A stretch of 64,000 bases of DNA, from contig NZ_AP029018.1 in the NCBI RefSeq assembly GCF_037076525.1, positions 496,001 to 560,000 on the forward strand, read 5' to 3'. The first letter of the stretch is position 1. Each line of letters begins with the position of its first letter. The notes beneath the pieces are model-generated. The model worked only from the letters and a program-made list of their open reading frames with translations. It had not been told where the DNA came from and ran no database searches. A program made the position numbers and the translations under genes. Positions 28,103 to 61,645 of this stretch are shown here, in pieces. Origin of the DNA: Selenomonas sp. TAMA-11512 (lineage in GTDB: Bacteria; Bacillota; Negativicutes; Selenomonadales; Selenomonadaceae).

Positions 28103-28131
28103 GGCAATTCTATAGAAGAGGGGGAATACAC

Positions 28132-40711: not shown

Positions 40712-40876
40712 TAGGAAATCACGGATAAAATGAAGGCACCCGGATTTGCACAGATGCGCCGTATCTATCCGGGAGACAAGCCGCAGGCGCAGCGGTGCTG
40801 CGCCGAGGAGCTGTCGACGACGAGAGGACAGTGCAGATGCGTGAAGATGGGTGGCTGCATGCATCCGTGATTCCTT
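40712..40876 (+). repeat. 165-bp dispersed repeat, copy D (divergent, full length)
   Basis: Ends TAGGAAATCACGGATAAA and its inverted counterpart CATCCGTGATTCCTT; length exactly 165 bp like copies A and B. The interior differs at many positions, but the layout is kept: the central stem is GCGCAGC-GGT-GCTGCGC instead of CAGAGT-GGT-ACTCTG, with the following GAGGA conserved. The end overlaps the stop codon of the GntP-family gene. Confidence 0.75.
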
Positions 40877-42284: not shown

Positions 42285-42314
42285 TGGGGGAAACCCTCCT
42301 TAAAAATAATATTT

Positions 42315-42376
42315 GCGGAAGCACTGATAAATGCAGCCCGATCATCTCGACACATCTTTTTGTCCGCACTTCGGCC
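42315..42376 (-). repeat. Partial copy of the 165-bp repeat
   Basis: CGGAAGCACTGATAAATGC and the next about 45 bases match the outer part of copy B (through CACTTCGGC). A second, complete copy begins directly after, so this is a remnant beside or interrupted by it. Confidence 0.75.
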
Positions 42377-42377
42377 T

Positions 42378-42541
42378 AGGGAAACACGGATAAATGCAGC
42401 ACAGCCATCTTGACGTATCTTTTCCGCCCTCGCTTTGTTGGCAAATCCTCCGCAGAGCACCACTCTGCGTTCGGTTTGCCTCCTTGATAGAACAAAAAAT
42501 CTACACCAATCTGACAGGCTTCATTTTATCAGCGTTTCCTT
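42378..42541 (-). repeat. 165-bp dispersed repeat, copy E (full length)
   Basis: 164 bp from AGGGAAACACGGATAAATG to TTTATCAGCGTTTCCTT, minus orientation, with the conserved central stem GCAGAG...CTCTGC. Lies in the gap between the hydroxyacid dehydrogenase and GntP genes. Confidence 0.82.
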
Positions 42542-42547
42542 GGGAAA

Positions 42548-43510: not shown

Positions 43511-43640
43511 GTCTTCATCTCCTTATGGCTATGCTTTCTCATGAAACGCCAAGGGGGCAGGCGAAAGCAGCCCGATTGGCAATTTCATGGGAAAGACGAT
43601 GTACAGTGCGCACAAAGCGGATGCTTGTGCAAACCGTTTA

Positions 43641-44429: not shown

Positions 44430-44762
44430 TGTACGCAACCTCCTGAAACAAAACTTCATCCGATGATTCTGACAACTATACCAACAACTTATATTATAGC
44501 AGTAAAGACGAGATAAGTCGATAAACTACATGAATTAAAATGTGTAAAATATAAGGATTATACAGGTATATGAAGGCGGATTTCCTGCATTGCCAACTCG
44601 AAAAGATTGAAATATCTTGTTTGAGTCGTAATACTGGTTATTTTGAATCATATTTCAATTGTGATAATTGTAAAATATGAAGATCATATGTAAAAAACGC
44701 GGACTGCATATTTTATTTTTAGAGGAAATATGGTAATCTATGGGGCATGGGAGGGGTAGTGC
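44430..44762. other. Divergent regulatory region between aldolase operon and AraC regulator
   Basis: A 333-bp AT-rich stretch without a gene. It holds the minus-strand promoter described separately. Several AT-rich segments (for example around 44640-44690, with TTTCAATTGTGATAATTGTAAAAT) could be AraC-type binding sites, but I see no clear repeated motif. Confidence 0.5.
44493..44521 (-). promoter_or_regulatory. Candidate promoter of the minus-strand sugar-acid operon
   Basis: On the minus strand, TCGACT (44521-44516) and TATAAT (44498-44493) are separated by 17 bp, about 65 bp before the aldolase start. Confidence 0.55.
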
Positions 44763-45638
44763 ATGTATGCCATACAGAATGTTTCCAGATTAAGAGGAAA
44801 TGTAGATACCTACGGCGGGATGGAGATCAACTTTTACCCGACGAGTGAGACGGTAGCACAGTACGTTCATTATCACGATTACTACGAGATTATCATCTAT
44901 CTGGGAGATACGCCGGCAACATTTATTCATAAGGAGACAGCTGCGAAGCGCCCTGTTCATATGGGTGATATCCTGCTGATCGATATCTTTGACGGACATA
45001 TGCTGGATGCAAGAGGAAATGAGCAGTCTGCGCGGTTCAGCGTGGGAATTTCGCCGGAATATATCAAGCTCTGTTCGGCGAATTCCGTTTCGCTCAAAAA
45101 TCTTTTCAGTCGCAGCAATAAAGGCTATCCTGTTTTTCGCCCGTCCATGTGGGAATTTCAAAAGTATGTTAACTTAATCCAACAATATCGAAGCAGCTCC
45201 TTTGAGAAGGCGGACATTGTTTATAAGCAGGGGATTGTACATCAGATGCTGGCATTCCTCTATGAGGATTTTTATCATGACGGTAAGGAAAGCATCGTCG
45301 ACGATCAAAAAGCGCATATCGTGCGAGAGACGATCGGATATATTCACGAGCACATATCGGAAGATTTGCGGCTGGATAAGATTGCGGCAAAGATGCAGTA
45401 CAGCAAGCAGCATCTGGCGTCCATATTCAAGGAGATAACGCACACAACGCTGAACAGCTATATAGCGGAAAAGCGCATCACGACGGCGATTGCCATGATG
45501 AAAAACGGTCCGATACCTTTGACTGAGGTAGCGGAAAAGATCGGATTCTTAAACTACAGCACATTTTTTAAAGCGTTTAAAAAGGTAACCGGAGTGTCAC
45601 CGAAGGAGTATATAAGTTATCCTATGGATCGGGGATGA
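44763..45638 (+). CDS. AraC family transcriptional regulator
   Basis: A 291-residue regulator with a cupin-like N-terminal sensing domain (YVHYHDYYEIIIYLGDTPATFIHKETAAKRPVHMGDILLIDIFDGH). The C-terminus has two helix-turn-helix motifs (LRLDKIAAKMQYSKQHLASIFKEITHTTLNSYIAEKRITTAIAMM and PLTEVAEKIGFLNYSTFFKAFKKVTGVSPKEY). It is divergent from the aldolase-dehydratase operon and upstream of a second dehydrogenase gene, so it probably activates one or both. Confidence 0.92.
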   Translation: MYAIQNVSRLRGNVDTYGGMEINFYPTSETVAQYVHYHDYYEIIIYLGDTPATFIHKETAAKRPVHMGDILLIDIFDGHMLDARGNEQSARFSVGISPEYIKLCSANSVSLKNLFSRSNKGYPVFRPSMWEFQKYVNLIQQYRSSSFEKADIVYKQGIVHQMLAFLYEDFYHDGKESIVDDQKAHIVRETIGYIHEHISEDLRLDKIAAKMQYSKQHLASIFKEITHTTLNSYIAEKRITTAIAMMKNGPIPLTEVAEKIGFLNYSTFFKAFKKVTGVSPKEYISYPMDRG

Positions 45639-45767
45639 GAGACGGCTTTCTTAGCTTTACAAACATAAGCAATCTTGTTATACTTTGAGTAGATTCGATG
45701 TCTGACAATTTATTACATATCGTAGGGGCGCTTGCCTTTTGAGCTTAGTATAATGGGAGGTCAAATT

Positions 45768-46733
45768 ATGAAAATTGTCGTGTTGGACGGTTATACGGAA
45801 AATCCTGGGGATATCTCGTGGGGGCCGCTGGAAGCGCTTGGAGAGCTTACGGTATACGACCGTGTTTCCTATGAAGAGTCTCCTGCCATCGCGGAAAAGC
45901 TGCAGGGTGCAGCCGTGGCTGTCACGAACAAGACCCCGATCAGCCGCGAAACAATCGATAAGTGCACGGATCTCAAAGCGATTGCCGTGCTCGCAACCGG
46001 CTACAATGTGGTCGACTATACGTATGCCAAGGAAAAGGGCATCCCCGTCATGAACGTCCCCGTCTACGGTACGGATAACGTCAGCCAGTTCGCCGTATCG
46101 CTCCTTTTGGAGGTGTGCTCGCATATCGGACATCACAGCTTCACCGTCCATCAGGGCGAGTGGGCGTCAAATCCCGACTGGTGCTACTGGAAGTCTCCCA
46201 TGATCGAGGTCTCCGGAAAGACGGCGGGCATCATCGGCCTCGGACGTATCGGCGTCAATACGGCGAAGATACTTCGGGCGATGAATGTCAACGTGCTTGC
46301 CTATGATCGCAGCCAGCATGATGCGGGACGTGCCGTGGCAACTTACGTCGAGCTTGACGAGCTCCTCGCAAAGTCTGACTTTATCTTCCTGCACTGCCCC
46401 CTCTTCCCTGAGACGGAGGGTATCATCAACAAGGCGAACATCGCCAAGATGAAAGACGGCGTCATCATCGTCAACAACAGCCGCGGACCGCTCGTCGTGG
46501 AGCAGGATCTCTACGAGGCGCTCGAGAGCGGAAAGGTCTACGCGGCGGCGCTGGATGTCGTTTCGACTGAGCCCATCAAAGCGGATAATATCCTCCTGAA
46601 GGCGAAGAACTGCATCATCACGCCGCATATCTCGTGGGCGACGAAAGAAGCTCGTGAGCGCATCATGCAGACGACGGCGGACAATGTCGCCGCCTTTCAG
46701 AAAGGCGCTCCGACGAACGTCGTCAATGCGTAA
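45768..46733 (+). CDS. D-2-hydroxyacid dehydrogenase (hydroxypyruvate/glycerate type)
   Basis: A 321-residue NAD-dependent reductase resembling glycerate dehydrogenase HprA: ITNKTPISRETI-like region KTPISRETIDKCTDLKAIAVLATGYNVVDYTYAKEKGIPVMNVPVYGTDNVSQFAV, NAD loop GIIGLGRIGVNTAKILRAMNVNVLAYD, catalytic Arg in NNSRGPLVVE and His in ITPHISWAT. Distinct in sequence from the enzyme at 42548. ATG at 45768 follows GGGAGG. An attenuator-like hairpin separates it from the SDR gene. Confidence 0.9.
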   Translation: MKIVVLDGYTENPGDISWGPLEALGELTVYDRVSYEESPAIAEKLQGAAVAVTNKTPISRETIDKCTDLKAIAVLATGYNVVDYTYAKEKGIPVMNVPVYGTDNVSQFAVSLLLEVCSHIGHHSFTVHQGEWASNPDWCYWKSPMIEVSGKTAGIIGLGRIGVNTAKILRAMNVNVLAYDRSQHDAGRAVATYVELDELLAKSDFIFLHCPLFPETEGIINKANIAKMKDGVIIVNNSRGPLVVEQDLYEALESGKVYAAALDVVSTEPIKADNILLKAKNCIITPHISWATKEARERIMQTTADNVAAFQKGAPTNVVNA

Positions 46734-46755
46734 GTGCATATCGTGTATGGAAAAA

Positions 46756-46790
46756 GCTGTCGCACCGTACGGTGCGGCAGTCATTTTATA
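46756..46790 (+). terminator. Hairpin between dehydrogenase and SDR genes
   Basis: GCTGTCGCACC and GGTGCGGCAGT form a stem with a GTAC loop, followed by CATTTTAT. Possible partial terminator. Confidence 0.55.
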
Positions 46791-46805
46791 ACGGGGGTGT
46801 CTTTT

Positions 46806-47573
46806 TTGAACGCGAAAGAATTGTTCTGTATCGAGGGAAAGAAAGCCATTGTGACAGGCGGTACGCGTGGACTGGGACACGGCATGGCGGAAGGGCTGAT
46901 GGAGGCAGGCGCCGAGGTTGCAATCATCGGCACATCAGATAAGGTATATGAGGTCGCTGCGGATTTTCGGACTGGAGGGTATTCCTGCCATGGAGTAAAG
47001 GCCGATTTTTCCAAACGCGAAGAAGTATACGGGGGATTTCAGGATGCCATGAAGGCGCTGGGCGATCTCGACATACTTGTCACGGCGCACGGCATACAGC
47101 GCCGACACAGTGCGGAGGAGTTTCCGATCGAAGAATGGGACGAGGTGATGCGCGTCAACCTCGATGCGGTGTTCATCCTCTGCCAGGAGGCTGCAAAGGT
47201 AATGCTGCCGAAGGGATATGGCAAAATCATCAATATCGCCTCGCTCATTTCTTTCTTCGGCGGACAGACGATTCCGGCGTATTCCGCCTCCAAGGGCGGT
47301 GTCGCACAGCTGACAAAAGAGATGTCCAATGACTGGATGGCACGGGGCATCAATGTCAATGCGATCGCGCCCGGCTACATGGCAACGGAAATGAATACCG
47401 CATTGCTGGATCAGACGAAACCGCGCTATAGGGAAATCACGGATCGCATCCCCGCAAAGCGATGGGGAACCGGCGACGATATGAAGGGCTGCTGCATCTT
47501 CCTGGCTTCGCATGCGAGCGACTACCTCGGCGGGGCCATCATTCCCGTCGACGGCGGATACCTGGTGAAATAA
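46806..47573 (+). CDS. SDR family oxidoreductase, KduD-like (2-keto-3-deoxygluconate/gluconate 5-dehydrogenase type)
   Basis: A 255-residue classical short-chain dehydrogenase: IVTGGTRGLGHGMAEGL (cofactor loop near residue 13), LVTAHGIQRRH, IINIASLISFFGGQTIPAYSASKGG with catalytic Ser, Tyr and Lys, NVNAIAPGYMATEMN, and DYLGGAIIPVDGGYL. The run from NVNAIAPGYMAT to the C-terminus matches KduD closely. It would oxidise or reduce a sugar acid or deoxy-sugar acid. TTG at 46806 is chosen because GGGGGTG lies 7 bases upstream; no other start gives the usual short N-terminus. Confidence 0.85.
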   Translation: MNAKELFCIEGKKAIVTGGTRGLGHGMAEGLMEAGAEVAIIGTSDKVYEVAADFRTGGYSCHGVKADFSKREEVYGGFQDAMKALGDLDILVTAHGIQRRHSAEEFPIEEWDEVMRVNLDAVFILCQEAAKVMLPKGYGKIINIASLISFFGGQTIPAYSASKGGVAQLTKEMSNDWMARGINVNAIAPGYMATEMNTALLDQTKPRYREITDRIPAKRWGTGDDMKGCCIFLASHASDYLGGAIIPVDGGYLVK

Positions 47574-49326: not shown

Positions 49327-50875
49327 TTCTCGGAGGGGGTTGCAAAAAGAGAAAGAGACCAGTACCCTAAAGTGTATGCTAACGAGGCGAATACACAAGA
49401 AGGAAGGTCTCTTATGGAAACTATTGTAACAGAAATCCTGGAAATAATAAAGGGTACAAAAGACAATATCTCCCAAGAAGAACAACTGCGCAGTTACTTT
49501 GAGATCCTGATATGCCGTGCAGTTAGCGAAGCACTCGAACGAATTGACAAAGAACTGGCAGAGCGATACGCAGCCAAAGGCTGGCACGTGGAACGGCTTG
49601 ATGCACGGTGCGTGCAAGCAAGCTACGGAACGATTCAAATCCGTCGCAGGCGCATGAAAAAAGAAGGAGAAGCCAGTATATACCCCTTGGACAAAGAAGT
49701 GGGTATTCGCCCTTACCGGAGATACACCGCCTATTTGGAATACGTTATTGCCTGTATTGCAGCCAAGAGCGTCTACCGTGATACAGCCGCTGTCGTCAAC
49801 CTGCTGAGTCCCGTCACGATAAGCCACCAACAAGTTGCACATGTCGTGAGACGAGTAGGAGAAACCTATGGTGCTTGGGAGAAATTGCAGGAAAGCACCG
49901 ATCCCATGGAAGAGACAGAACTGCGCCGACCGGAAGTTCTCTACATCGAAGGGGATGGACTCATGCTGCACGGGCAGAATAAGAAACAGATCGAGCTCCA
50001 TCGATTCCAAATCGCCGAAGGCGTGCAAGAAAACGGCAACCGTCGTACCCTTATTGGCACCCACTATGTAGCGAATCTCGATCACGAGAAAGCCAAAGAG
50101 AGTCTGCTGCACTATCTGGGGAGCCACTATGATCTAACCCATACCCTGGTTCTGAGCAACAGTGATGGAGGTGCCGGTTACACCTGCGGCGTCTTTGAAG
50201 AAATCCTTGGAAGCGTCGGCCGGCATGAGCACTTTCTGGATTGGTACCACGTACAAAGAAAATGCAGAGAACGCCTTTTATGGGCGAATTCGACCCTATA
50301 CAAGAAACTATACAAAGCGCTGTATACCCATGAACGTGAGGAAATGGGCCTAGTATTGGATACCGTGGAATCTATGTCCCAAGATGAGCGACAAACGGAA
50401 CAAGTGGAGCTTCTTCGAAAGTACATAGAAAGAAACTGGATATACCTTGCCGGCTTGGAAGAACGAGGGATCGGGGAATACAGGAAGCTTTTGGGGACGT
50501 GTGAAAGCAACCATAGGCTCTACAGCTACCGGATGAAGAAGCAAGGCAGACGATGGAGTCGAGCCGGTGGCGAAGCGATGGTAAAGATCATCACGGGATT
50601 GAAGAACGGTGATCTGCGAGAGGCCATGGCGGCGAAGGCGGAGTGGTTCAATGCGAAGGTAGGAAGAGACTTCCGCGGAGCCGTGCGAGAGGCATTGAAA
50701 AGAAGAAAAAGCACGACGTATGACGGGGTCCGAGATGGGAGGATTACAGTAAGTGCGCCGATGAGCAGTGGGATTGGACATTTGTCCAAATGCTTTGCTT
50801 AGAGGCAAAAAAAGACTATGCCACGAAGGCAGACACATCAAGGGTGAAAACTCACCACCGAGAAAATCTTGACAC
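49316..50875 (+). mobile_element. ISLre2-family-like insertion sequence
   Basis: About 1,560 bp with imperfect ends (GTGTAAAATAGTTCTCGG left; GTGTCAAGATTTTCTCGG right, reverse complement). It encodes one UPF0236-type transposase. The right end carries an outward TTGACA (50869-50874), a potential -35 for the adjoining dctM. No obvious 9-bp target duplication is seen. Confidence 0.8.
49414..50802 (+). CDS. ISLre2 family transposase (UPF0236)
   Basis: A 462-residue UPF0236 protein: GTIQIRRRRM, RRYTAYLEYVIACIAAKSVYRDTAAVVNLL, YIEGDGLMLHGQ (first Asp), SNSDGGAGYTCGVFEEI (second Asp) and DWYHVQRKCRERL. The C-terminal CESNHRLYSYRMKKQGRRWS fits the family. Apparently intact. ATG at 49414 follows AAGGAAGG. 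Confidence 0.9.
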   Translation: METIVTEILEIIKGTKDNISQEEQLRSYFEILICRAVSEALERIDKELAERYAAKGWHVERLDARCVQASYGTIQIRRRRMKKEGEASIYPLDKEVGIRPYRRYTAYLEYVIACIAAKSVYRDTAAVVNLLSPVTISHQQVAHVVRRVGETYGAWEKLQESTDPMEETELRRPEVLYIEGDGLMLHGQNKKQIELHRFQIAEGVQENGNRRTLIGTHYVANLDHEKAKESLLHYLGSHYDLTHTLVLSNSDGGAGYTCGVFEEILGSVGRHEHFLDWYHVQRKCRERLLWANSTLYKKLYKALYTHEREEMGLVLDTVESMSQDERQTEQVELLRKYIERNWIYLAGLEERGIGEYRKLLGTCESNHRLYSYRMKKQGRRWSRAGGEAMVKIITGLKNGDLREAMAAKAEWFNAKVGRDFRGAVREALKRRKSTTYDGVRDGRITVSAPMSSGIGHLSKCFA

Positions 50876-50879
50876 ATAC

Positions 50880-52163
50880 ATGAGTATGAGCTTAGTTATT
50901 ATATTGCTGTTTATCGTGTTAATGTTTCTCGGCGTGCCGATTGCAGTATCTTTGGGAGCAGCATCCGTCATTGTTATGGCAACGATGACCGATCTGCCGC
51001 TGAACATGGCGGCGCAGTCGATGTTTACGGCGATGAATTCATTTATCATGGTTGCCGTACCGCTGTTTATCCTCTGCGGATCATTGATGGATGAAGGCGG
51101 CATAGCGGACCGCATATATGATTTGGCAGAATCGGCGGTAGGCTGGATCTTTGGCGGTCTGGGGCACGTTTCTGTAGCGGTTAATATGTTATTTGCCGGG
51201 ATGTCCGGTTCATCCGTTGCCGCGATCGCTTCCATCGGCAAGATGAGCATCAATGCGCTCGATAAAAAAGGCTATCCCAAGGACTACGCTACAGCGATCA
51301 ATCTCTCCGGCTCCATGCTTGCATCGGTTATTCCTCCATCAATCCTGATGATTAATGCAGCTGCGACAGGCAATGTGTCCATAGGGCAGGCGCTTCTTGC
51401 GGGTCTGGTGCCGGGCGTGTTGATCGGCATGCTGTTCATGATTTACAATTATATTTATTGCAAAAAACACAATATCGGTGATCGCATACCGTTTTCCTCC
51501 GCTAGACTCGGAAAAGCGGTGTTTAGAGCCATTCCGGCATTGTTGACGCCGGTTATCCTCTTGGGCGGCGTATATACGGGAATCTATACTCCTACGGAGG
51601 GCGCAGGCATAGCCGTTGTCTATACCGTATTGGTATCCATCTATGTCTTTAAGAATCTGAAATGGAGCGATATTCCGAGGATTATCATTAAAAACGCACG
51701 CTCCACAGGGACAATTCTGTTTGTGGCGATTGCCGCGAAACCTGCTTCTTTGCTGTTTGAGATTGACGGTTTGCCGGCCCTTGTTGCAAATATGATTACG
51801 GGAATCTCCGATAATCGCATCGTAATATTATTTGTACTGTATGCATTCCTGATCTTTGTCGGTATGTTTATGGATGCCACGGCAGCAATCTTCATACTGG
51901 TACCTATCTTGCTGCCGGCGGTACAGGCGGTGGGAGTTACTCCGCTCTTCTTTACGGTATTTCTTGTCATTACACTTTCCTTCGGGCTGATTACTCCGCC
52001 GGTGGGCGTATGCTTATATGCCGCGGAAAATGTTACCGGGCTGCCGATAGAATCGATTATAAAAGCCTCACTTCCTTGGATCTTACTGATCGCCGTTTCA
52101 CTGTGCGCGCTGATTCTCTTTCCTCAACTGATTGAGATTCCTGTCAAGATCGTATTTGGTTGA
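50880..52163 (+). CDS. Orphan TRAP transporter large permease DctM
   Basis: A complete 427-residue DctM subunit (IAVSLGAASVIVMATMTDLPLNMAAQSM, LLFAGMSGSSVAAIASIG, SGSMLASVIPPSILMINAAATGNVSIGQALLAG, YTPTEGAGIAVVYTV, FGLITPPVGVCLYAAENVTG). No dctP or dctQ is adjacent. Its ATG is only 5 bp from the end of the ISLre2-like element and no ribosome site of its own is visible, so the insertion has removed its upstream partners or leader. Expression is doubtful. Confidence 0.88.
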   Translation: MSMSLVIILLFIVLMFLGVPIAVSLGAASVIVMATMTDLPLNMAAQSMFTAMNSFIMVAVPLFILCGSLMDEGGIADRIYDLAESAVGWIFGGLGHVSVAVNMLFAGMSGSSVAAIASIGKMSINALDKKGYPKDYATAINLSGSMLASVIPPSILMINAAATGNVSIGQALLAGLVPGVLIGMLFMIYNYIYCKKHNIGDRIPFSSARLGKAVFRAIPALLTPVILLGGVYTGIYTPTEGAGIAVVYTVLVSIYVFKNLKWSDIPRIIIKNARSTGTILFVAIAAKPASLLFEIDGLPALVANMITGISDNRIVILFVLYAFLIFVGMFMDATAAIFILVPILLPAVQAVGVTPLFFTVFLVITLSFGLITPPVGVCLYAAENVTGLPIESIIKASLPWILLIAVSLCALILFPQLIEIPVKIVFG

Positions 52164-53150: not shown

Positions 53151-53199
53151 GGCACAAAGCGTCCAAAAGTGAGATTTATTTCACGAGAAGGTGAATTAT

Positions 53200-53208
53200 G
53201 CTATAATG
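53200..53208 (+). promoter_or_regulatory. Extended -10 promoter of the LacI-type regulator
   Basis: TGCTATAAT, about 41 bp before the chosen start codon; the preceding TTCAC...GTGAA dyad (about 53181-53196) could be an operator. Confidence 0.55.
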
Positions 53209-53248: not shown

Positions 53249-54253
53249 ATGACGATATACGACATTGCACGGGAAACGGGTGTGTCCATCGCCACAGTCT
53301 CACGTGTGGTGAACAACAAAGGATATGTCAGTCAGGAAACGAGAGACAAGATACAAAAGGCTTTGGAGCGCAGCAAGTATCAGCCGAGCGCAATTGCCCG
53401 AGGCCTTGCGACGGGATCTATGAAGACGGTTGCGATTCTTGTTGTCGATGTGCGCGTTCCGCATTACGCGATGACGACGTATATCATGGAAGATCTTCTG
53501 TCGAAGGAAGGCTATGCCGTGCTGGTATGCAATACCAATACGGATATGGAAAAGACGAGCCGGTACCTGCGCATGCTGGGCGAGCGCAATGTGGACGGGA
53601 TTATTTTAGTCGGCTCCGTTTACCGCGACTTATGTACGGAGGATGCGCTGCAGGCCGTGAAAAAGATTCCGCTGATCCTGGCGAATGGAAAGCTGGAGCA
53701 GGACAACGCGTATTCGGTTCTTGTGGATGAAGGGTATGGGATCGGCCTCGCGGCAGAGCAGATGCTGCGGACGGGGCACACGCATTTAGCTTACGTAGCG
53801 GATCTGCAGACCGAGTCGTCGGAGCGCAAGCAGAAGGGCTTTTGTGAGGCGATGGAGCGCGCGGGAGCGAGGGAGTCACGGCAGCACATTTTTCATACGG
53901 AATACGGTATGGATGGCGGCCGTGATGTCGTGGAGCGCATCTGTCAAACGTATTATGACGAAGAAAAGCATATTCCCTATGACGGCATTGTATGCGGAGA
54001 GGATCTGACGGCGGTCGGAGTGCTGTATGCCTTACAGGAAAAAGGCTTTAAAGTGCCGCAGGACATTGCGGTGTCCGGATGCAACAATTCGGAGTACGCG
54101 TATATCTGCAATCCGAAGCTTACAACGATCAACAACAAAGGGGAGCTGCTCAGCCGTCTTACGGTCGAACTGCTGATTGAGATTTTGACGGAGGGCGAAC
54201 AGAAAGCGGAACGAAGAATTTTGCCGGAGCTGACGGTTCAGGAAACAACATAG
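53249..54253 (+). CDS. LacI family transcriptional regulator
   Basis: A 334-residue repressor-type regulator: DNA-binding head TIYDIARETGVSIATVSRVVNNKGYVSQETRDKI with the hinge SAIARGLATGSMKTVAILV, then a periplasmic-binding-protein-like sugar domain (GIILVGSVYRDL, AYVADLQTESSERKQKGFCEAM, GVLYALQEKGFKVPQDIAVSGCNNSEYA, TTINNKGELLSRLTVELL). ATG at 53249 gives the usual LacI start. It precedes a co-directional catabolic operon whose promoter overlaps a LacI-type palindrome, its likely target. Confidence 0.93.
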   Translation: MTIYDIARETGVSIATVSRVVNNKGYVSQETRDKIQKALERSKYQPSAIARGLATGSMKTVAILVVDVRVPHYAMTTYIMEDLLSKEGYAVLVCNTNTDMEKTSRYLRMLGERNVDGIILVGSVYRDLCTEDALQAVKKIPLILANGKLEQDNAYSVLVDEGYGIGLAAEQMLRTGHTHLAYVADLQTESSERKQKGFCEAMERAGARESRQHIFHTEYGMDGGRDVVERICQTYYDEEKHIPYDGIVCGEDLTAVGVLYALQEKGFKVPQDIAVSGCNNSEYAYICNPKLTTINNKGELLSRLTVELLIEILTEGEQKAERRILPELTVQETT

Positions 54254-54266
54254 ATATGTAGGACAT

Positions 54267-54301
54267 TGCGGTTTCGAGCTTGCCTCGGAATCGCATTTTT
54301 T
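54267..54301 (+). terminator. Terminator of the LacI-type gene
   Basis: TGCGGTTTCGAG pairs with CTCGGAATCGCA (including two G-T pairs), followed by six T. Confidence 0.8.
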
Positions 54302-54324
54302 ATTTTGAAATATACAAAAAAGAA

Positions 54325-54377
54325 TTGACATCAAAAGAAAATGGGATATAATAATGTGTGTGTAAGGGCTTACACAC
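54325..54377 (+). promoter_or_regulatory. Promoter and LacI-type operator of the HPS/PHI operon
   Basis: TTGACA (54325-54330) and TATAAT (54347-54352) with a 16-bp spacer. Just downstream, GTGTGTAAGGGCTTACACAC (54358-54377) is a perfect 9+2+9 palindrome resembling LacI-family operators (TGTAA-NN-TTACA type). A repressor bound here would block transcription. Confidence 0.82.
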
Positions 54378-54442
54378 GCGAAGGAGGAGAGAAAAAACTT
54401 GTAAAGTGAGATGAAACAAGAAGGTTTTGGAGGAGGATTGAC

Positions 54443-55795
54443 ATGGAGTATATAGTTGGTATCGTGCTTTTGGTGTCTTTCTTCGGGCTGGTTGTATATG
54501 CCGTGCGCGGCGGCAATCTGATGCTCGGAATTTTTGCAATGGCAATCATTTGGACAGCAGTGCCTATGATCGGCAATATGCTGGTCACGGATGCCTCTTT
54601 TCTTGAGATGGCCGGAAAGACGGTCCAGATTTCCTGGACAGACGCATTGAAGAAGGTATTCCAATCCGGGCCGGAGGGCTGGGGATCGGTGCTTGTCAAT
54701 GTGTGCTTCGGTGCGTGGTTCGGACGTGTGCTGATGCGCACGGGCATTGCATCGAGTCTCATCCGGACAACGACGGAGCTCGGCGGAGACAAGCCGTGGC
54801 TGACCTGCATCCTGCTCTGTATCGTGACGACGGCGATTTTCTCATCGGTATTCGGTGCGGGCGCGGTCATCGCGATCGGCGTCATTGTTCTTCCGATTTT
54901 CCTGTCGCTCGGCATCAATAAGATTGTCGCGACGGTCTCCTTTATGATGAGCGTCGGTGCGGGCATGTTCCTGAACCCCGTGCTCTATGGACAGTTTGCG
55001 GCATTCTTCCTGGACGCGAACGGCAAGACGATGTATCCCTATGAGCTGCAGGTGAGCTGGGGTATCTACGGGATGCTGATACAGCTTGCCGTTATCATCA
55101 TGCTCGTAATCCTTTCGACGCGCAAGAAAAAGGTGCACAGCTGGGCGGCGACGCTTCCGCAGAGTCAAAGACCTCGTGATCGCGTATCCGGCTATGCGCT
55201 CCTTACGCCGATTATTCCTGTCGTACTCCTGATCGTGTTCAAGATTCCGATCATTCTCGGATTTGTCTGCGGCAGCTTTTATGCGCTGGCCACTTGCGGG
55301 AAGCTTGAGTCGTGGGCGCAGACGGCACGCACAATCAATAAAGACTTCTTTGACGGCGTGTGCGATACGGCGCCTCTCGTCGGATTCCTTCTCTTCCTGC
55401 CGATGTTCAACAAGGCGGCGGAGCTCTGCGTGCCGTATTTCCGCGCGCTGCTCGGCGGCGTCATCCCGCAGGACACGCTGGTTTTGTCGGTTGCCTTTGC
55501 CTTGCTTGCGCCCATGGGGCTGTTTCGCGGTCCGTTCACGCTGTTCGGATGCGGCGCTGCGACGCTCGGCATATTGAATTCACTCAATTTGCCTGTCTCA
55601 TATCTTGCTCCGCTCATTATTATCCCCAGCATTGTCATGAATGTCTCCTGCTGCATCACGCAGTCGTGGATCGTATGGGGCGTCAGCTATACGAAGGTGC
55701 CTACGCGTGAGTACCTGATGATCAGCGCGACGGCGGGCTGGATCATCACGGCTGTGCTGGAAATCATGATCTATGTCATGTTTGGAAATATTTGA
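54443..55795 (+). CDS. Membrane transporter, citrate/GntP-like superfamily, substrate unknown
   Basis: A 450-residue protein with about 11-12 hydrophobic segments: IVGIVLLVSFFGLVVYAV, LGIFAMAIIWTAVPMIGNML, VLVNVCFGAWFGRVLMRTGIASSLIRTTTELGGDKPW, AVIAIGVIVLPIFLSLGI, and a C-terminal repeat-like half with PMGLFRGPFTLFGCGAATLGIL. The layout recalls ion-transporter-superfamily permeases for organic acids; I do not recognise a named member. As first gene of the LacI-controlled operon it probably imports the substrate. Confidence 0.75.
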   Translation: MEYIVGIVLLVSFFGLVVYAVRGGNLMLGIFAMAIIWTAVPMIGNMLVTDASFLEMAGKTVQISWTDALKKVFQSGPEGWGSVLVNVCFGAWFGRVLMRTGIASSLIRTTTELGGDKPWLTCILLCIVTTAIFSSVFGAGAVIAIGVIVLPIFLSLGINKIVATVSFMMSVGAGMFLNPVLYGQFAAFFLDANGKTMYPYELQVSWGIYGMLIQLAVIIMLVILSTRKKKVHSWAATLPQSQRPRDRVSGYALLTPIIPVVLLIVFKIPIILGFVCGSFYALATCGKLESWAQTARTINKDFFDGVCDTAPLVGFLLFLPMFNKAAELCVPYFRALLGGVIPQDTLVLSVAFALLAPMGLFRGPFTLFGCGAATLGILNSLNLPVSYLAPLIIIPSIVMNVSCCITQSWIVWGVSYTKVPTREYLMISATAGWIITAVLEIMIYVMFGNI

Positions 55796-55814
55796 GCAGG
55801 ATAGGAGGGGCATC

Positions 55815-57956
55815 ATGACTACGGAAACCAAACGTCAGGTACGCATGGGAATAGATGTAGGCGGCACGCATACGAAAGCGGTTGCGATTGACAACGCGAC
55901 GCAGAAGATCATCGGAAAAGCATCGGTCAAAACGACGCATGATGATGAATATGGCGTAGCGGCAGGCGTCGTGCAGGCATTTCAGAAATGCATGACGGAG
56001 CATAAAATTGCACCGGAGGAAGTCATCTTCGTGGCGCATTCGACGACGCAGGCGACGAACGCCTTGGTCGAGGGCGATGTCGCGAAGGTCGGAATCATCG
56101 GGACCTCGGAGGGCGGTATTCAGGGCCTTCTGGCGAAGATACAGATGAAGCTCGGAAATATCGACCTCGGCAACGGACGGGAGATAGAGATTGTAAATCA
56201 ATACATCTCCGAGAAGAACTTTTCGCATGATTCGGTGGAAAAGGCGGCAAAGGCGCTGCAGGAGAAGGGCGCCGAGGTGTTTGTCGCGACCCAGGCGTTC
56301 GGCGTCGATGACATGGCGGAGGAGCAGAACATCGCTTCCGTGACGAAGGATGAGATGGGCGTCGAGACGACGATGGCATCGGAGATTACAAAGCTCTACG
56401 GGCTGACGCGCAGGACGCGCACCGCCGCGATCAATGCCTCGATTCTGCCCAAAATGCTCAATACGGCAAACCAAACGGAGCACTCGGTGCGCGAAGCGGG
56501 CGTCCATGTGCCGCTGATGATCATGCGCGGCGACGGCGGCGTCATGGAGATCACGGAGATGAAGAAGCGCCCCGTGCTCACAATGCTCTCGGGGCCGGCC
56601 GCGTCGGTCATGGGCTCGCTCGTCTACCTGCGCGCGTCGAACGGCGTGTATTTCGAGGTGGGCGGCACGACGGTCAACATCGGCGTCATCAAGGACGGCA
56701 GACCGGCAATCGACTATTCCATCGTCGGCGGGCATCGCACGTACATTACTTCCCTGGATGTCCGCGTTTTGGGTGTCGCGGGCGGCAGCATGATCCGCGC
56801 AAGCGAGAAGGGCGTAAAGGATGTGGGCCCTCGCAGCGCACATATCGGAGGACTGGAATACGCCGTCTTTACGCCGGAGGAAGAGATTGTCGATCCGAAG
56901 CTGGAGCTCTTCTCGCCGCGGCCGGGGGATCCGAATGACTATGTCTGCATACGCCTGGCCGGCGGGAAGCGCATCACGATCACGAATACCTGCGCGGCGA
57001 ATGTGCTCGGCCTGGTCGATCCGCAGTATTTCTCGTACGGAAACGCCGCTGCGGCCCGCAAGGCAATGCAGCCCGTTGCGGATTACATGGGGACGACGGT
57101 CGAAGATGTGGCGCGGCAAATTTTGACGCGCGCTTATGAGAAGATCAGTCCGATTATCTTTGAGCTCGCGGACAAATACAAGCTGGAGCGCGATATGATT
57201 CATCTCGTCGGTGTCGGCGGCGGCGCGGCTGCGCTGATCGGTTTCTGCGCAGAAAAGATGGGGGTTCAGTACAGCATTCCGGAAAATGCGGAGGTCATCT
57301 CCTCCATCGGCGTTGCGCTTGCGATGGTTCGCGACGTGGTTGAGCGCACGGTGCCCGATCCGACGGCGGAGGATATCCGCGCCATCAAGCAGGAGGCGAC
57401 GGATAAGGCGATTGAGAGCGGAGCGGCGCCCGATACGGTAGAGGTTCATATTGAGATTGATCCCCAGACCTCCAAGCTGACCGCCATAGCGAGCGGCTCG
57501 ACGGAAGTGAAGGCGCAGGATCTGATGGCGGAATGCAGTGAGCAGGAAGCGTATGAACTCGCTGCGGAGGATATGAAGAAAAGCGTCGACGAAATCGAGA
57601 TCACGGCGAGCAGCGCAAACTTCCGCGTATTTCAGCCGAAGGCGGAAAGCGGGGCACGCGCCGTGCGTATTGTCGACAAGAAAGGCTTCATCAAAGTACA
57701 GCGTGCGGACGGGAAAGCCATGACCACCCGCGCAACAGGCTATCGCGCCGTTGTAACGCAGATGTGGGAAGAGCTTGCCGTGTATAAGGCCGATGCAATC
57801 CTGCGTCCGGATTACTATATTTGTGCAGGGCCTAGAGTGATGGACTTTTCGGGGAGCACGGAGCTGGATCGCGTTTTGATGCTGATGGATGTGGAGATGC
57901 AGTCCATGGATGCGTCCCTGGATATTTTGGTTATCGGCGCACGAACCATGATGTAA
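55815..57956 (+). CDS. Hydantoinase/oxoprolinase family protein (HyuA-like)
   Basis: A 713-residue protein with an actin-like ATPase N-terminus: MGIDVGGTHTKAVAID (residues about 11-26), VIFVAHSTTQATNALVEGDVAKVGIIGTSEGG, MLSGPAASVMGSLVY and FEVGGTTVNIGVIKDGRP, all typical of HyuA/5-oxoprolinase-type proteins. The family uses ATP to activate or hydrolyse cyclic amides, or to carboxylate ketones. No HyuB partner is present, unlike hydantoinase or acetone carboxylase operons, so its reaction here is unclear. The C-terminal about 180 residues are atypical. AGGAGG precedes ATG at 55815. Confidence 0.85.
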   Translation: MTTETKRQVRMGIDVGGTHTKAVAIDNATQKIIGKASVKTTHDDEYGVAAGVVQAFQKCMTEHKIAPEEVIFVAHSTTQATNALVEGDVAKVGIIGTSEGGIQGLLAKIQMKLGNIDLGNGREIEIVNQYISEKNFSHDSVEKAAKALQEKGAEVFVATQAFGVDDMAEEQNIASVTKDEMGVETTMASEITKLYGLTRRTRTAAINASILPKMLNTANQTEHSVREAGVHVPLMIMRGDGGVMEITEMKKRPVLTMLSGPAASVMGSLVYLRASNGVYFEVGGTTVNIGVIKDGRPAIDYSIVGGHRTYITSLDVRVLGVAGGSMIRASEKGVKDVGPRSAHIGGLEYAVFTPEEEIVDPKLELFSPRPGDPNDYVCIRLAGGKRITITNTCAANVLGLVDPQYFSYGNAAAARKAMQPVADYMGTTVEDVARQILTRAYEKISPIIFELADKYKLERDMIHLVGVGGGAAALIGFCAEKMGVQYSIPENAEVISSIGVALAMVRDVVERTVPDPTAEDIRAIKQEATDKAIESGAAPDTVEVHIEIDPQTSKLTAIASGSTEVKAQDLMAECSEQEAYELAAEDMKKSVDEIEITASSANFRVFQPKAESGARAVRIVDKKGFIKVQRADGKAMTTRATGYRAVVTQMWEELAVYKADAILRPDYYICAGPRVMDFSGSTELDRVLMLMDVEMQSMDASLDILVIGARTMM

Positions 57957-57984
57957 TGCGGAGCGCGGATGGGAGGAGATGGGC

Positions 57985-58758
57985 GTGGATTGGGCAAAAC
58001 TGTTCCGACGGTCAAAGCCGGCGCCGTATGAACCGTATGCAGAGCAGCCGATCTATCCGATCGGGGAGATGATGCGGCATATGGCGCAGATCGCGCCGGA
58101 GGACTACGGCTGGTACGCCTTTTCAAGGGAGCTCCTGCGCGACAAATTTGCGGATGATGAGAAGCGCGCGCTGATGGAGCGGGCGCATCGCTGCGGCACG
58201 GAGGAGGCGGAGCTCCTCCGTGCCGCGTGCGGTGTGACGGGCGGTGTGCTGACGCCCGCGCGTGCGGCGGACTTCCTCGGGGTGGAGATCGCATACGAGG
58301 ATGCGCCGTCGGACGGCGGGCAGGTGCTCTTTGCGACCTTTACGGAACCGGATCGCGTCACCGTCTATCGGGACGCGGTGCGGCGCGGGGAGGAGCTGCT
58401 GAAGGATGCGGCGGTGAGGGAGGCGCTCCCGCAGCTTGATAGCACGCGCGTCCTGCTGTGGCATGAGCTGTTTCATGTCGTGGAGCTGCAAAAGAAGGCG
58501 ACGATCTTTACGAAGACCGAGAAGATCGCGCTGTGGCGCGGCCCCATTCCCAATCGATCCGGGATACTGTGCCTTGGCGAGATCGCAGCGATGCAGTTTG
58601 CGGCTGCGATGGAGGGACTGACGTATTCGCCCTACTGCCTCGACGTGCTGCTCGTGTACGGCTATGACGCGCACGCGGCAAGCGCCTTGTTTGATGAGAT
58701 AAAGCAGGTGTTGTCATCCCGTGCGGAAGGGACAACGAAGGAGGATGCACCATGTTGA
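57985..58758 (+). CDS. HExxH-motif protein of unknown function
   Basis: A 257-residue soluble protein with a zinc-protease-like LLWHELFHVVELQKK (His160-Glu-Leu-Phe-His164) and a downstream GEIAAMQFAAAM whose Glu (near 199) could be the third ligand. Residues about 70-95 (CGVTGGVLTPARAADFLGVEIAYED) have no family I recognise. It lacks a signal peptide. Presence in a sugar-catabolic operon is unusual. GTG at 57985 is preferred, as GGGAGGAG lies 8 bases upstream; the ATG at 57979 is too close. It overlaps the next gene. Confidence 0.7.
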   Translation: MDWAKLFRRSKPAPYEPYAEQPIYPIGEMMRHMAQIAPEDYGWYAFSRELLRDKFADDEKRALMERAHRCGTEEAELLRAACGVTGGVLTPARAADFLGVEIAYEDAPSDGGQVLFATFTEPDRVTVYRDAVRRGEELLKDAAVREALPQLDSTRVLLWHELFHVVELQKKATIFTKTEKIALWRGPIPNRSGILCLGEIAAMQFAAAMEGLTYSPYCLDVLLVYGYDAHAASALFDEIKQVLSSRAEGTTKEDAPC

Positions 58759-59216
58759 CGGAAAATATAAAAATCGAGGGAAAGTGGAACTATCGTTCCG
58801 AGAAATTTCGTCGTGCGATTGCGTTCCTGAAGGAAACGGATTTTTCGAAGGAGCAGCCGGGCAGCGTGCTGCAGATCGGCGACGGGATGCGCGCGGAGAT
58901 ACAGGAGTATGAGACCATGCCCGCAGACACCTGCCGTTTCGAGTCGCACCGCAAATACTTTGATATCCAGTATGTGGCGAGCGGTGAGGAGTGCATGGGC
59001 TATATCAAGCAGTCCGAGCTGACGCCGGCGGAGCCGTACGATGAGGAGCGCGATCTCGCGTTCTATGAGGAGCCGCAGACCTCGGGACGAGTGCATCTGC
59101 GCGCGGGCGATTTCGCGATTGTCTCGCCGGACGACGGGCATAAGCCGCGCTGCATCGGTGACGCCGTGTGCCTCGTTCGGAAAATCGTTGTGAAGGTCCC
59201 CGTGGAAGAAGCTTGA
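58752..59216 (+). CDS. YhcH/YjgK/YiaL family protein
   Basis: A 154-residue DUF386 cupin-like protein: FESHRKYFDIQYVASGEECMGYI and GDFAIVSPDDGHKPRCIGDAVCLVRKIVVKV hold the metal-ligand His and acidic residues of the family. Relatives occur with sialic acid, ascorbate/2,3-diketogulonate and rhamnose pathways; several are suspected sugar isomerases or anomerases. Starts inside the HExxH gene end, so translation is coupled. Confidence 0.88.
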   Translation: MLTENIKIEGKWNYRSEKFRRAIAFLKETDFSKEQPGSVLQIGDGMRAEIQEYETMPADTCRFESHRKYFDIQYVASGEECMGYIKQSELTPAEPYDEERDLAFYEEPQTSGRVHLRAGDFAIVSPDDGHKPRCIGDAVCLVRKIVVKVPVEEA

Positions 59217-59229
59217 AGGGAGAAGTCCG

Positions 59230-60177
59230 ATGACAGAGGTAATTTTATTTGGTGAGCCGATGGCCATGTTTGTGGCGGACACGGAAGGGCCGCTGGACGA
59301 GGTGGAGCAGTTCACGAAGCTTCTGGCGGGCGCGGAGGTCAACGTCGCAATCGGGCTTCAGCGCCTCGGGCACAGCGTGACCTATGCGACGCGGCTCGGG
59401 ACGGACCCGTTCGGCACGTATATTGAAAAGAAGCTGCAAAAGGAGCGGATTCATACGCAGATCGTCCGCGATGCGGAGCACTTTACGGGCTATCAGCTGA
59501 AAAGCAGGGTGATGCAGGGCGATCCCGAGGTCTTCTACTTCCGGAGGAACAGCGCCGCCTCGCATTTGAACGAGCGGGATGTGGAGGCGATTCCGCTGGA
59601 CGGGGTCAAGGTGCTCCATATGACGGGCATCCCAGCCGCGCTTTCGCAGAGCTGCCGCAATGCGACATATCGCTTGATTGAACGCGCCAAGGAGCGGGGG
59701 ATTTGTGTGACGTTTGACCCGAACCTTCGCCCGGCCCTATGGGAGAGCAAATCCGCGATGATTCGCACGGTGAATCACCTTGCGTCCATGGCTGATATTG
59801 TGCTGCCCGGAACCGCAGAGGGCGAGATCCTGATGGGAAGTGCGGATGCGGAAGAAATCGCCGCGTTCTATCGCAAGCTGGGCGCGCGCATGGTATTTGT
59901 CAAAGAAGGCGACAAGGGCGCGTACGCGGACACGCCGGAAATGCGCGCCCATGTAAAGGGCATTCCGGCAGACAAGGTTGTTGATACGGTCGGCGCGGGA
60001 GACGGTTTTGCGGTCGGCATCATAAGCGGATGGATTGAAAATCTGCCGATTCCGCAGATGGTGGAGCGTGCCAACGCAATCGGCTCCATACAGGTTACCG
60101 TGAAGAGCGACAATGAAGGCCTGCCCACACGAGAAGAATTGGAGAAATACATAGAGGAACGGGGAGGGCATGCATAG
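59230..60177 (+). CDS. 2-keto-3-deoxygluconate kinase-like PfkB kinase
   Basis: A 315-residue PfkB (ribokinase-fold) kinase: ILFGEPMAMFVADTEGPLDEVEQFTKLLAGAEVNVAIGLQRLGHSVTYATRLGTDPFG at the N-terminus, FDPNLRPALWES, VFVKEGDKGAY and the ATP/catalytic motif DTVGAGDGFAVGIISGW (Asp near residue 256). N-terminal and FDPNLRP stretches match KDG kinases. It phosphorylates a keto sugar or deoxy sugar acid. ATG after GAAGGGAGA; overlaps the next start. Confidence 0.88.
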   Translation: MTEVILFGEPMAMFVADTEGPLDEVEQFTKLLAGAEVNVAIGLQRLGHSVTYATRLGTDPFGTYIEKKLQKERIHTQIVRDAEHFTGYQLKSRVMQGDPEVFYFRRNSAASHLNERDVEAIPLDGVKVLHMTGIPAALSQSCRNATYRLIERAKERGICVTFDPNLRPALWESKSAMIRTVNHLASMADIVLPGTAEGEILMGSADAEEIAAFYRKLGARMVFVKEGDKGAYADTPEMRAHVKGIPADKVVDTVGAGDGFAVGIISGWIENLPIPQMVERANAIGSIQVTVKSDNEGLPTREELEKYIEERGGHA

Positions 60178-60815
60178 TGCAGCTGCAGGTGGCAATCGAC
60201 CGCGTTACCGTACCCGAAGCGATCGAATTGATTCGGCGTGTGGGCGGAAATGCAGACATCGTTGAAATCGGGACGTCTCTGATCAAGGAATACGGACTGG
60301 CAGACAGCGTCGGAAAAATTTGCCGGGAGTTTCCGGGGCAGGCATTTCTTGCCGACATTAAAACGTGTGACGAGGGGGCGTATGAGTTTCAAAAAACGTA
60401 CGAGGCGGGGGTGGAAATAGCTACGGTGATGGGCTTTTCTTCCTTTTCGACTGTCCGTGCGTGTGAGCAGGTTGCCCAATCTCTGGGCAAGCCCTACCTG
60501 ATTGATTTGCTCGAGTGCGATGCGGCACGCGTCAAGCGCCTTGCCGCCGAGTTTCCGCAGGCGATTTTCGGCATCCATCTTCCTTCGGACTGCGAGGGAG
60601 AAGGATTGACAGAGCTGGTTGAGCAGATGGCGGGACAGTTGTCGGACGAAGCCGCGGCAGCGCCCAAGATAGCTGCGGCCGGCGGTGTTCGCCTGTCGGC
60701 GGTGCCGCTGCTGAAGCAATTCGGGATCGAGGTCAGCATTGTCGGAGGTGCCATTACGAAGGCGGCCGATGTTTCCGCGGCGGCGCGGGCATTTTATGAA
60801 GCGGTTCATATGTAG
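60177..60815 (+). CDS. hxlA: 3-hexulose-6-phosphate synthase-like protein (HPS/KGPDC family)
   Basis: A 212-residue OMP-decarboxylase-fold enzyme: LQVAIDRVTVPEAIELIRRVGGNADIVEIGTSLIKEYG, FLADIKTCDEGAYEFQKTYEAGVEIATVMGFS (the catalytic DxKTxD variant), and PKIAAAGGVRLSAVPLLKQFGIEVSIVGGAIT. The family includes hexulose-6-phosphate synthase (ribulose 5-phosphate plus formaldehyde) and 3-keto-L-gulonate-6-phosphate decarboxylase (UlaD). The PHI gene next to it favours HPS; reversed, the pair makes ribulose 5-phosphate from fructose 6-phosphate. GTG start overlaps the kinase stop. Confidence 0.85.
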   Translation: MQLQVAIDRVTVPEAIELIRRVGGNADIVEIGTSLIKEYGLADSVGKICREFPGQAFLADIKTCDEGAYEFQKTYEAGVEIATVMGFSSFSTVRACEQVAQSLGKPYLIDLLECDAARVKRLAAEFPQAIFGIHLPSDCEGEGLTELVEQMAGQLSDEAAAAPKIAAAGGVRLSAVPLLKQFGIEVSIVGGAITKAADVSAAARAFYEAVHM

Positions 60816-60830
60816 GAAAAGAGGGGCAAT

Positions 60831-61373
60831 ATGGTAGAGGTACTGGAGCAAATCGAAGAGGAAATCCATCATGTGCTCTGCAAGGTCAAGGCAGAGGACA
60901 TGGAGCGCTTCGCAGGCGAACTTCATCATGGAAAACGGATTTTTGTTGACGGGGAAGGGCGTTCAGGATTCAGCGCGAAAGGGTTCACCATGCGCCTGAT
61001 GCACCTTCGCTATACGGTGTATTTTGTCGGCGAGACGATTACACCCGCCATGGAAGCGGGTGATGTATTCATCGCGGTTTCGGGCTCGGGGAAAAGTCAG
61101 AACGTAGTCAATGATGCGGAAAAGGCGAAGCAAAAGGGACTGCGTGTGCTTGCCGTCACGAGGAAGCCGGATTCGCCGCTCGCCAAGCTTGCGGATGTCA
61201 TATTGGAGATTCCAGGGACGGTGAAGGGCGATGCCGGAGAAGAGCGCAAATCCATCCAGCTTCTAAGTTCGCTTTTCGATCAGAGTCTGCATATCGTTTT
61301 GGATGCCGTTTGCTTGGAGCTGTCGCAGCGAGATCATGTTGCGAATGACCAGGCGACGGCGACGCACTGGTGA
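60831..61373 (+). CDS. hxlB: 6-phospho-3-hexuloisomerase-like protein
   Basis: A 180-residue SIS-domain isomerase: RIFVDGEGRSGFSAKGFTMRLMHLRYTVYFVGETITPAMEAGDVFIAVSGSGKSQNVVNDAEKAKQKGLRVLAVTRKPDSPLAKLADVILEIPG is the HxlB signature. It interconverts hexulose 6-phosphate and fructose 6-phosphate. It ends in a family-type C-terminus (LSQRDHVANDQATATHW) and closes the operon. Confidence 0.92.
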   Translation: MVEVLEQIEEEIHHVLCKVKAEDMERFAGELHHGKRIFVDGEGRSGFSAKGFTMRLMHLRYTVYFVGETITPAMEAGDVFIAVSGSGKSQNVVNDAEKAKQKGLRVLAVTRKPDSPLAKLADVILEIPGTVKGDAGEERKSIQLLSSLFDQSLHIVLDAVCLELSQRDHVANDQATATHW

Positions 61374-61450
61374 GAGAGGCGGCTGCTTCTACAGAGGACG
61401 GTCACTTGGCGGCCGGCTCCCCTTGCATACAGAAGAAGATGTTATAGAAT

Positions 61451-61499
61451 AATCCCCCTTACACAGATAGGGAAATACCCGATCTGTGCAAGGGGGATT
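61451..61499 (+). terminator. Long hairpin, probable terminator of the HPS/PHI operon
   Basis: AATCCCCCTTACACAGAT pairs with ATCTGTGCAAGGGGGATT (one mismatch). No T run, so termination strength is uncertain. Confidence 0.6.
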
Positions 61500-61645
61500 T
61501 GCTGTCTCTGATATTCATCAGCATAAGGCTGTCTTGGGAAAGCTTACTCAAAAAAGAGGAATGGGGCTTTCGTGCATAAGTATTGGCTATATTTTTTTGC
61601 ATAGCAATAGATTGAGATTTTTATCCTATAGTCAGGATTTGGATT

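Follow-up and report, generated by a model that had tools for sequence, protein, structure and literature searches.

2-Ketogluconate catabolism is served by the kgu genes in Pseudomonas plecoglossicida, where kgu knockouts impair the use of 2-keto-D-gluconate (2KG), which is also the effector of PtxS, a regulator of the LacI family (PMC11678583). In the kgu operon of Klebsiella, the genes are arranged in the order PtxS-KguE-KguK-transporter-KguD. We analyzed a window of 64,000 nucleotides from Selenomonas sp. TAMA-11512 (contig NZ_AP029018.1, positions 496,001 to 560,000), in which a LacI-controlled operon of seven genes (54443-61373, + strand) combines a KguK-type kinase with proteins that resemble hexulose-phosphate synthase (HPS) and phosphohexulose isomerase (PHI). 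PHI is known to interconvert the 2-keto and 3-keto forms of hexulose 6-phosphate, and a relative of HPS, 3-keto-L-gulonate-6-phosphate decarboxylase (KGPDC), decarboxylates 3-keto-L-gulonate-6-phosphate. In addition, 2-keto-6-phosphogluconate differs from fructose-6-phosphate in carrying a carboxylate as its C1 group and shares the D-arabino configuration. We consider it moderately probable that the operon serves a hexonate that enters metabolism as 2KG, and that the PHI-like and HPS-like enzymes replace the KguD step.

The operon and its genes

The order of the seven genes is permease, hyuA, HExxH gene, yhcH, PfkB kinase, HPS-like and PHI-like, with intergenic gaps of -7 to +22 nt. The lacI gene at 53249 is a separate transcription unit with a terminator-like hairpin behind it. 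All eight genes were found where an earlier note on this DNA had placed them, and its picture of a co-directional seven-gene operon behind one promoter and a LacI-type operator site was confirmed. It had also described several of the genes as overlapping, which was slightly generous, as overlaps occur at two junctions, of 7 nt between the HExxH gene and yhcH and of 1 nt between the kinase and HPS genes. By sequence comparison, this is a real bacterial operon that is widely shared, and the set recurs far beyond chance. The features are as follows.

53249..54253, + strand: LacI-family regulator in its own unit, with a promoter-like site at 53180-53207 (Pfam LacI and Peripla_BP_3)
54267..54295, + strand: terminator-like hairpin between lacI and the operon (12-pair stem, then a T run)
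54325..54352, + strand: sigma-70-type promoter, TTGACA-16-TATAAT (12/12 consensus matches)
54358..54377, no strand: putative LacI-type operator GTGTGTAAGGGCTTACACAC (perfect 9+9 nt palindrome)
54443..55795, + strand: permease, putative organic-anion transporter with a TRAP-M/DASS-like fold (weak DcuC match, AlphaFold2 model)
55815..57956, + strand: stand-alone HyuA-like protein of clade A with altered ATP-site motifs (Pfam Hydant_A_N and Hydantoinase_A)
57979..58758, + strand: HExxH metalloprotein with no family match (invariant residues in 46 homologues)
58752..59216, + strand: YhcH/YiaL (DUF386), probable anomerase of a sugar-acid hemiketal (Pfam DUF386, 4e-38)
59230..60177, + strand: KguK-clade PfkB kinase (48% identical to an annotated KguK; tree)
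60177..60815, + strand: HPS-like protein of its own subfamily, GTG start, proposed 3-keto-6-phosphogluconate decarboxylase (subfamily support 100/99, R9)
60831..61373, + strand: PHI-like SIS isomerase, proposed 2-keto/3-keto-6-phosphogluconate isomerase (TIGR03127, GEGRSG, SLFDQ)
about 61451..61499, + strand: strong hairpin after the PHI gene, where the operon probably ends (61441-61515 folds at -34.8 kcal/mol)

The kinase and its link to kgu operons

The best functionally annotated match of the kinase was KguK of the Klebsiella kgu operon (48% identity over 97%). In a maximum-likelihood tree, the kinase was placed in a clade with Klebsiella KguK with support of 100/99, apart from the kinases of 2-keto-3-deoxygluconate (KDG). 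Identity as a KDG kinase or IolC, suggested by NCBIfam matches that were all below their cutoffs, was set aside because the tree placed the kinase with KguK. The earlier note had called it a KDG-type kinase; the broader KDG/2-ketogluconate type was retained, and the tree puts the protein in the 2-ketogluconate kinase clade. Membership of the KguK clade makes 2KG the likely key intermediate.

No 2-hydroxyacid dehydrogenase of the KguD type was found among the seven operon genes; KguD-family proteins are encoded elsewhere in the genome. Plasmids of Tetragenococcus, Loigolactobacillus and Lacticaseibacillus encode a KguE-like TIM barrel, a permease, a KguK-like kinase, HPS, PHI, an aldolase for 2-keto-3-deoxy-6-phosphogluconate (KDPG) and LacI, and KguD was absent from these lactobacillales plasmid operons that hold a KguK-like kinase, HPS and PHI. 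The assignment of KguE is based on 29.5% identity between the TIM barrel and KguE (E = 4e-24). The operons of a clostridial genome (L186) and of Enterococcus (L179 and L180) contained the majority of these genes or the whole set. These plasmid, clostridial and enterococcal operons resemble kgu operons with HPS and PHI in place of the KguD reductase. The KguE-like protein was observed in the sister operons L130, L133, L140, L179, L180 and L186 and in those of the lactobacilli.

HPS-like and PHI-like subfamilies

The HPS-like proteins of these operons formed their own clade with support of 100/99, and KGPDC was in a separate clade. An Arg residue directly after the strand-1 active-site Asp (R9) was common to all 19 members of the HPS subfamily and missing from every other row of the alignment; R9 may be a carboxylate anchor. 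The window HPS keeps the catalytic D-K-D triad (DIKTCD) and has D110 at KGPDC position 112. The specificity set of KGPDC is E112, R139 and T169; the residues of the window HPS at these positions are D, S and A. Against the NCBIfam model TIGR03128 (HxlA), the window HPS scored 159.4 bits, below the cutoff of 200, and the window PHI scored 194.5 bits against TIGR03127 (HxlB), above the cutoff of 160.

The PHI proteins that accompany the HPS subfamily all have an SLFDQ or STLFDQ-type motif, whereas canonical PHI has SLFEQ, and most of them have GEGRSG instead of the canonical GAGRSG. The window PHI has both GEGRSG and SLFDQ. P. phocaensis has a second, canonical HPS/PHI pair elsewhere in its genome.

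Proposed pathway

In the proposed pathway, the permease would import the acid and YhcH would speed the opening or anomerization of its hemiketal. The most likely role of HyuA and the HExxH protein would be to make 2KG from a precursor brought into the cell (a cyclic lactone, lactam or amide form); the KguK-type PfkB kinase would phosphorylate 2KG at C6 to produce 2-keto-6-phosphogluconate. The PHI-like enzyme would then shift the keto function of this intermediate from C2 to C3, giving the beta-keto acid 3-keto-6-phosphogluconate, and the HPS-like enzyme would decarboxylate this product to D-ribulose-5-phosphate and CO2, in analogy to KGPDC. Every reaction and substrate of this pathway is predicted, with support from genomic context and phylogeny. 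The outline of the earlier note is supported in part: its imported sugar acid and its single LacI-controlled catabolic operon find support. The earlier note had also proposed an HPS-type step followed by isomerization to fructose 6-phosphate. An HPS-type reaction on a phosphorylated acid, plausibly a decarboxylation, was kept; however, PHI should act first, and ribulose-5-phosphate is predicted as the end product instead.

We propose tentatively that this is a redox-neutral 2KG route that needs neither KguD nor 6-phosphogluconate dehydrogenase and is coupled to an undescribed permease-HyuA-HExxH module, in which the HExxH protein replaces HyuB. In the open-access literature, we found no paper on a pathway that joins HPS/PHI with YhcH, hydantoinase or ketogluconate; within that scope, only a Ruminococcus gnavus transcriptome study deals with the module.

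Permease, HyuA, HExxH protein and YhcH

The AlphaFold2 model of the permease (pLDDT 86) matched the folds of SiaQM, INDY and NaCT with E values down to 7e-7. From this model, the permease is a predicted organic-anion transporter with an ion-transporter superfamily fold, similar to the membrane subunit of tripartite ATP-independent periplasmic transporters (TRAP-M) and to divalent anion/sodium symporters (DASS).

In nine homologues of clade A HyuA, K21, E281 and N288 were invariant, whereas a solved hydantoinase has Asp at these sites. The nucleotide motifs are T[HFY]TK and ExGGTxxN rather than TFTD and DxGGTSTD, so that the acidic residues are replaced. No operon protein matched Pfam Hydantoinase_B (HyuB), in agreement with the earlier description of a HyuA-like protein without HyuB, and an HExxH metalloprotein almost always travels with HyuA instead. 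The ring opening that the earlier note had assigned to HyuA is hypothetical. In the HExxH protein, H162, E163, H166, E169 and E201 were invariant across 46 homologues (HExxHxxE...E pattern). The protein has the ImmA/IrrE (M78) feature of HExxH with a downstream Glu ligand and had no Pfam match, and the fold search with its model produced a weak match to IrrE/PprI that was below significance (E = 0.7-1.3, probability about 0.5). YhcH scored above the cutoff of TIGR00022 and below that of the N-acetylneuraminate anomerase equivalog model.

Permease-kinase-HPS-PHI operons without HyuA were found in L180, L186 and the lactobacilli. Because these operons lack HyuA, HyuA and the HExxH protein probably supply 2KG from a precursor; possible candidates are an amide and the enol-lactone of 2KG, D-isoascorbate.

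Distribution and alternative downstream sets

In 300 genomes of the same class, HyuA fell into two groups, clade A with 55-92% identity and clade B with about 42%. A clade A profile applied to named genomes detected 80 loci, spanning Selenomonadaceae, Lachnospiraceae, other Eubacteriales, Clostridium, Paenibacillus, Enterococcus, Bifidobacterium, Lactococcus and some spirochaetes. The closest locus was that of Centipeda periodontii, which keeps every window gene at 68-92% identity, and partial or full gene sets were also present in Lachnospiraceae, Clostridium, Fonticella and Enterococcus. Co-occurrence in other genomes was the test on which the earlier note had staked its grouping, and the set does recur beyond the window.

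Neighborhood counts were drawn from 88 clade A HyuA loci, and the gene maps of the relatives are supported by homology. The permease adjoined hyuA in 84 of the 85 testable loci and the HExxH protein followed hyuA in 80 of 86. These linkage counts indicate that permease-HyuA-HExxH is the core and that the remainder is a variable downstream set. HPS and PHI were present in 10 loci, nine of them with the PfkB kinase, and a YiaK-family (Ldh_2) reductase was present in 20. The kinase-HPS-PHI and YiaK sets occurred together in none of the 88 loci. Their mutual exclusion was observed, as were the genes present, the structure of the operon, the conserved operator, the clade of the kinase and the subfamily motifs. 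YhcH accompanied either set (five HPS+PHI loci and 13 YiaK loci), and UxuA was found in nine loci; it co-occurred with YiaK in five of these and with HPS in none. Kinase-HPS-PHI sets are also held by L179 from Enterococcus and by L181-L183, whose hosts include Amphibacillus and Paenibacillus.

Reduction of 2KG at C2 gives D-mannonate, the substrate of UxuA. In one locus (L084), LacI, YiaK, permease, HyuA, HExxH, YhcH, UxuA, KDPG aldolase and KDG kinase are encoded in one operon, and this gene set reads as a full putative route via D-mannonate and KDG. In R. gnavus grown on agaro-oligosaccharides, the most strongly induced genes (log2 4.1-4.4) were in one operon that contained yhcH, hydantoinase, 'peptidase', uxuA, yiaK and one hypothetical gene, to which the authors assign no pathway; the discussion of that paper and its Table 3 conflict on the locus tags (PMC11581127). 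The content of the induced operon matches the YiaK-type version of the window operon.

The neighbors of clade B HyuA gave no clue to the substrate of HyuA. By eye, clade B HyuA and a permease at L039, L043 and L050 stand beside genes for a NanE-like protein, a ROK kinase, a galactonate-dehydratase-like enolase or an FAD oxidoreductase, and L039 carries an HExxH protein too. The HyuA module may serve several sugars. Raw scan matches of clade B HyuA at L010, L011, L012, L016 and L023 were each reported with one in-frame stop codon.

Regulation

The operator consists of two perfectly palindromic 9-nt arms, GTGTGTAAG-GG-CTTACACAC. A TG[AT]AAGCGCTT[AT]CA-like site was present ahead of the first operon gene in 18 of the 20 LacI-bearing loci, the window included, and it scored above at least 98% of shuffled sequences. 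The site also fits the CcpA cre consensus. As a sequence footprint, it shows conserved regulation, the identity of the binding protein left aside. The LacI proteins of HPS-type and YiaK-type operons were 34-75% identical to the window LacI and had the same type of operator. Given this relatedness and the common operator type, the simplest reading is that both kinds of operon would respond to the same inducer and hence have a common intermediate.

Alternative explanations

Because the best family names are HxlA and HxlB, the PHI scores above its NCBIfam cutoff and the HPS keeps the catalytic D-K-D residues, the pair could act as usual in formaldehyde detoxification or ribulose-monophosphate use, with the other genes as passengers. 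However, the HPS falls under the HxlA cutoff (159 vs 200 bits), both proteins belong to a subfamily of their own, whose motif changes are correlated and whose genes sit in sugar-acid operons alongside a KguK-type kinase, and the canonical pair is present elsewhere in the P. phocaensis genome. This explanation is very improbable, and the formaldehyde scenario in which the earlier note had allowed for HPS/PHI as the sole co-regulated members is disfavored, since other genes are co-regulated and the motifs differ from the formaldehyde type. Related operons with this type of LacI repeatedly contain YiaK (Ldh_2) and YhcH/YiaL, which suggested L-ascorbate or 2,3-diketo-L-gulonate breakdown as in yia/ula, where the HPS-like protein would be KGPDC, YhcH would be YiaL and the YiaK relatives would act on the same substrate. 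We rejected this reading on the missing specificity residues (D, S, A) and the separate KGPDC clade in the tree; UxuA, KDPG aldolase and the KguK-type kinase also indicate D-series acids, and breakdown of L-series compounds is quite improbable.

A hexuronate route, in which HyuA and the HExxH protein lead to D-fructuronate or a similar compound that is reduced (UxuB/YiaK) and dehydrated (UxuA), with kinase-HPS-PHI acting on a phosphorylated uronate, is consistent with UxuA in nine and UxuB in three HyuA operons, often with a GntR regulator, and with one locus that adjoins a UxaC-like gene. It is nevertheless improbable, because the kinase clade is that of KguK and we see no plausible chemistry from fructuronate through KguK, PHI and HPS, as the keto group would be on the wrong side of the carboxylate. 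A further possibility, which refines the 2KG pathway and does not exclude it, is that the HyuA module opens D-isoascorbate or another lactone or lactam of 2KG as the true substrate. HyuA relatives act on amide rings and ketones, and the HyuA-free permease-kinase-HPS-PHI operons imply that HyuA adds a precursor, but the acidic ATP-site residues of HyuA are replaced by the invariant K21, E281 and N288; we regard this refinement as unlikely, although less so than the other alternatives.

Several observations weigh against the 2KG pathway itself. KguE is absent from the window operon, and KDPG aldolase, which is present in several sister operons, lies outside the model. Decarboxylation is predicted, yet the D, S and A at the specificity positions resemble HPS over KGPDC. 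In one HPS+PHI operon (L067), no kinase was found nearby. Three Bacillales operons join kinase-HPS-PHI with a phosphotransferase system (PTS) and an unclassified 546-residue protein, which are also outside the model; the PTS of the Amphibacillus and Paenibacillus sets is EIIBC, and the 546-residue protein, without a Pfam match, is possibly a beta-propeller glycosidase. The PTS and possible glycosidase in these three relatives suggest that 2KG is perhaps not the sole substrate. Furthermore, the genome encodes 6-phosphogluconate dehydrogenase (window 28132-29520), KguD-family proteins, KDPG aldolases and UxuA, and the first two make the classical route possible.

Neighboring genes

The FGGY kinase and 6-phosphogluconate dehydrogenase genes at 26555-29520 of the window are a probable gluconate operon. 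Another sugar-acid or hydroxyacid cluster at 40875-47573 contains a GntP permease, two D-2-hydroxyacid dehydrogenases, an HpcH/HpaI aldolase, an AraC regulator and a short-chain dehydrogenase/reductase. At 49372-52163, a UPF0236 transposase-like gene is directly ahead of a TRAP DctM gene and may have inserted into a TRAP operon. RpiB, encoded shortly ahead of lacI, was rejected as a pathway member because it is not kept in Centipeda.

Comparison with known systems

If the 2KG pathway is correct, a common sugar acid is degraded by sister families of two textbook formaldehyde enzymes, and 'hexulose-6-phosphate synthase' labels in gut and lactic-acid bacteria are predictably wrong where HPS has R9 and PHI has SLFDQ. 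Fermenting bacteria would also reach pentose phosphate from 2-ketogluconate with no reductant spent. In addition, the analysis gives a handle on a widespread permease-HyuA-HExxH module that is part of the most induced operon in the R. gnavus experiment.

The window operon shares with the kgu operon (PtxS, KguE, KguK, KguT, KguD) a LacI-family regulator in its own unit, a terminator ahead of the operon, a palindromic operator, a KguK-clade kinase and, in its sister operons, a KguE-like protein. It differs in having neither the KguD reductase nor a major facilitator superfamily transporter, and has the HPS-like and PHI-like proteins and HyuA-HExxH-YhcH instead. Compared with HxlA/HxlB of the ribulose monophosphate pathway, the families, the HPS catalytic triad and the order HPS-PHI are the same, whereas the window HPS subfamily has R9, EIGTSL and a changed HTGxD motif, the PHI has GEGRSG and SLFDQ, a carboxylated substrate is expected for the pair, and there is no formaldehyde link. 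KGPDC (UlaD/SgbH) belongs to the same orotidine 5'-monophosphate decarboxylase (OMPDC) suprafamily and is the analogy for the proposed decarboxylation of a beta-keto-acid 6-phosphate; in contrast, the window HPS is without E112/R139/T169, is in a separate clade and is expected to act on a D-series substrate.

The domains Hydant_A_N and Hydantoinase_A are common to the window HyuA and to HyuA/OplA/CapA, the alpha subunits of ATP-dependent hydantoinase, 5-oxoprolinase and caprolactamase, but the window HyuA has no HyuB, has altered TFTD and DxGGTSTD motifs and has the permease and HExxH protein as constant partners. The E. coli yia operon (YiaK, YiaL, SgbH) also combines YhcH/YiaL with an OMPDC-suprafamily enzyme, and YiaK is present in the sister operons; the window operon contains no TRAP transporter, its PfkB kinase of the KguK type takes the place of LyxK, and its HPS-like protein is not KGPDC. 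Finally, R. gnavus FXV78_RS16940-16965 (PMC11581127) shares yhcH, a hydantoinase-type hyuA, an HExxH 'peptidase', uxuA and yiaK with this group of operons, and differs from the window operon in that a YiaK/UxuA downstream set replaces kinase-HPS-PHI.

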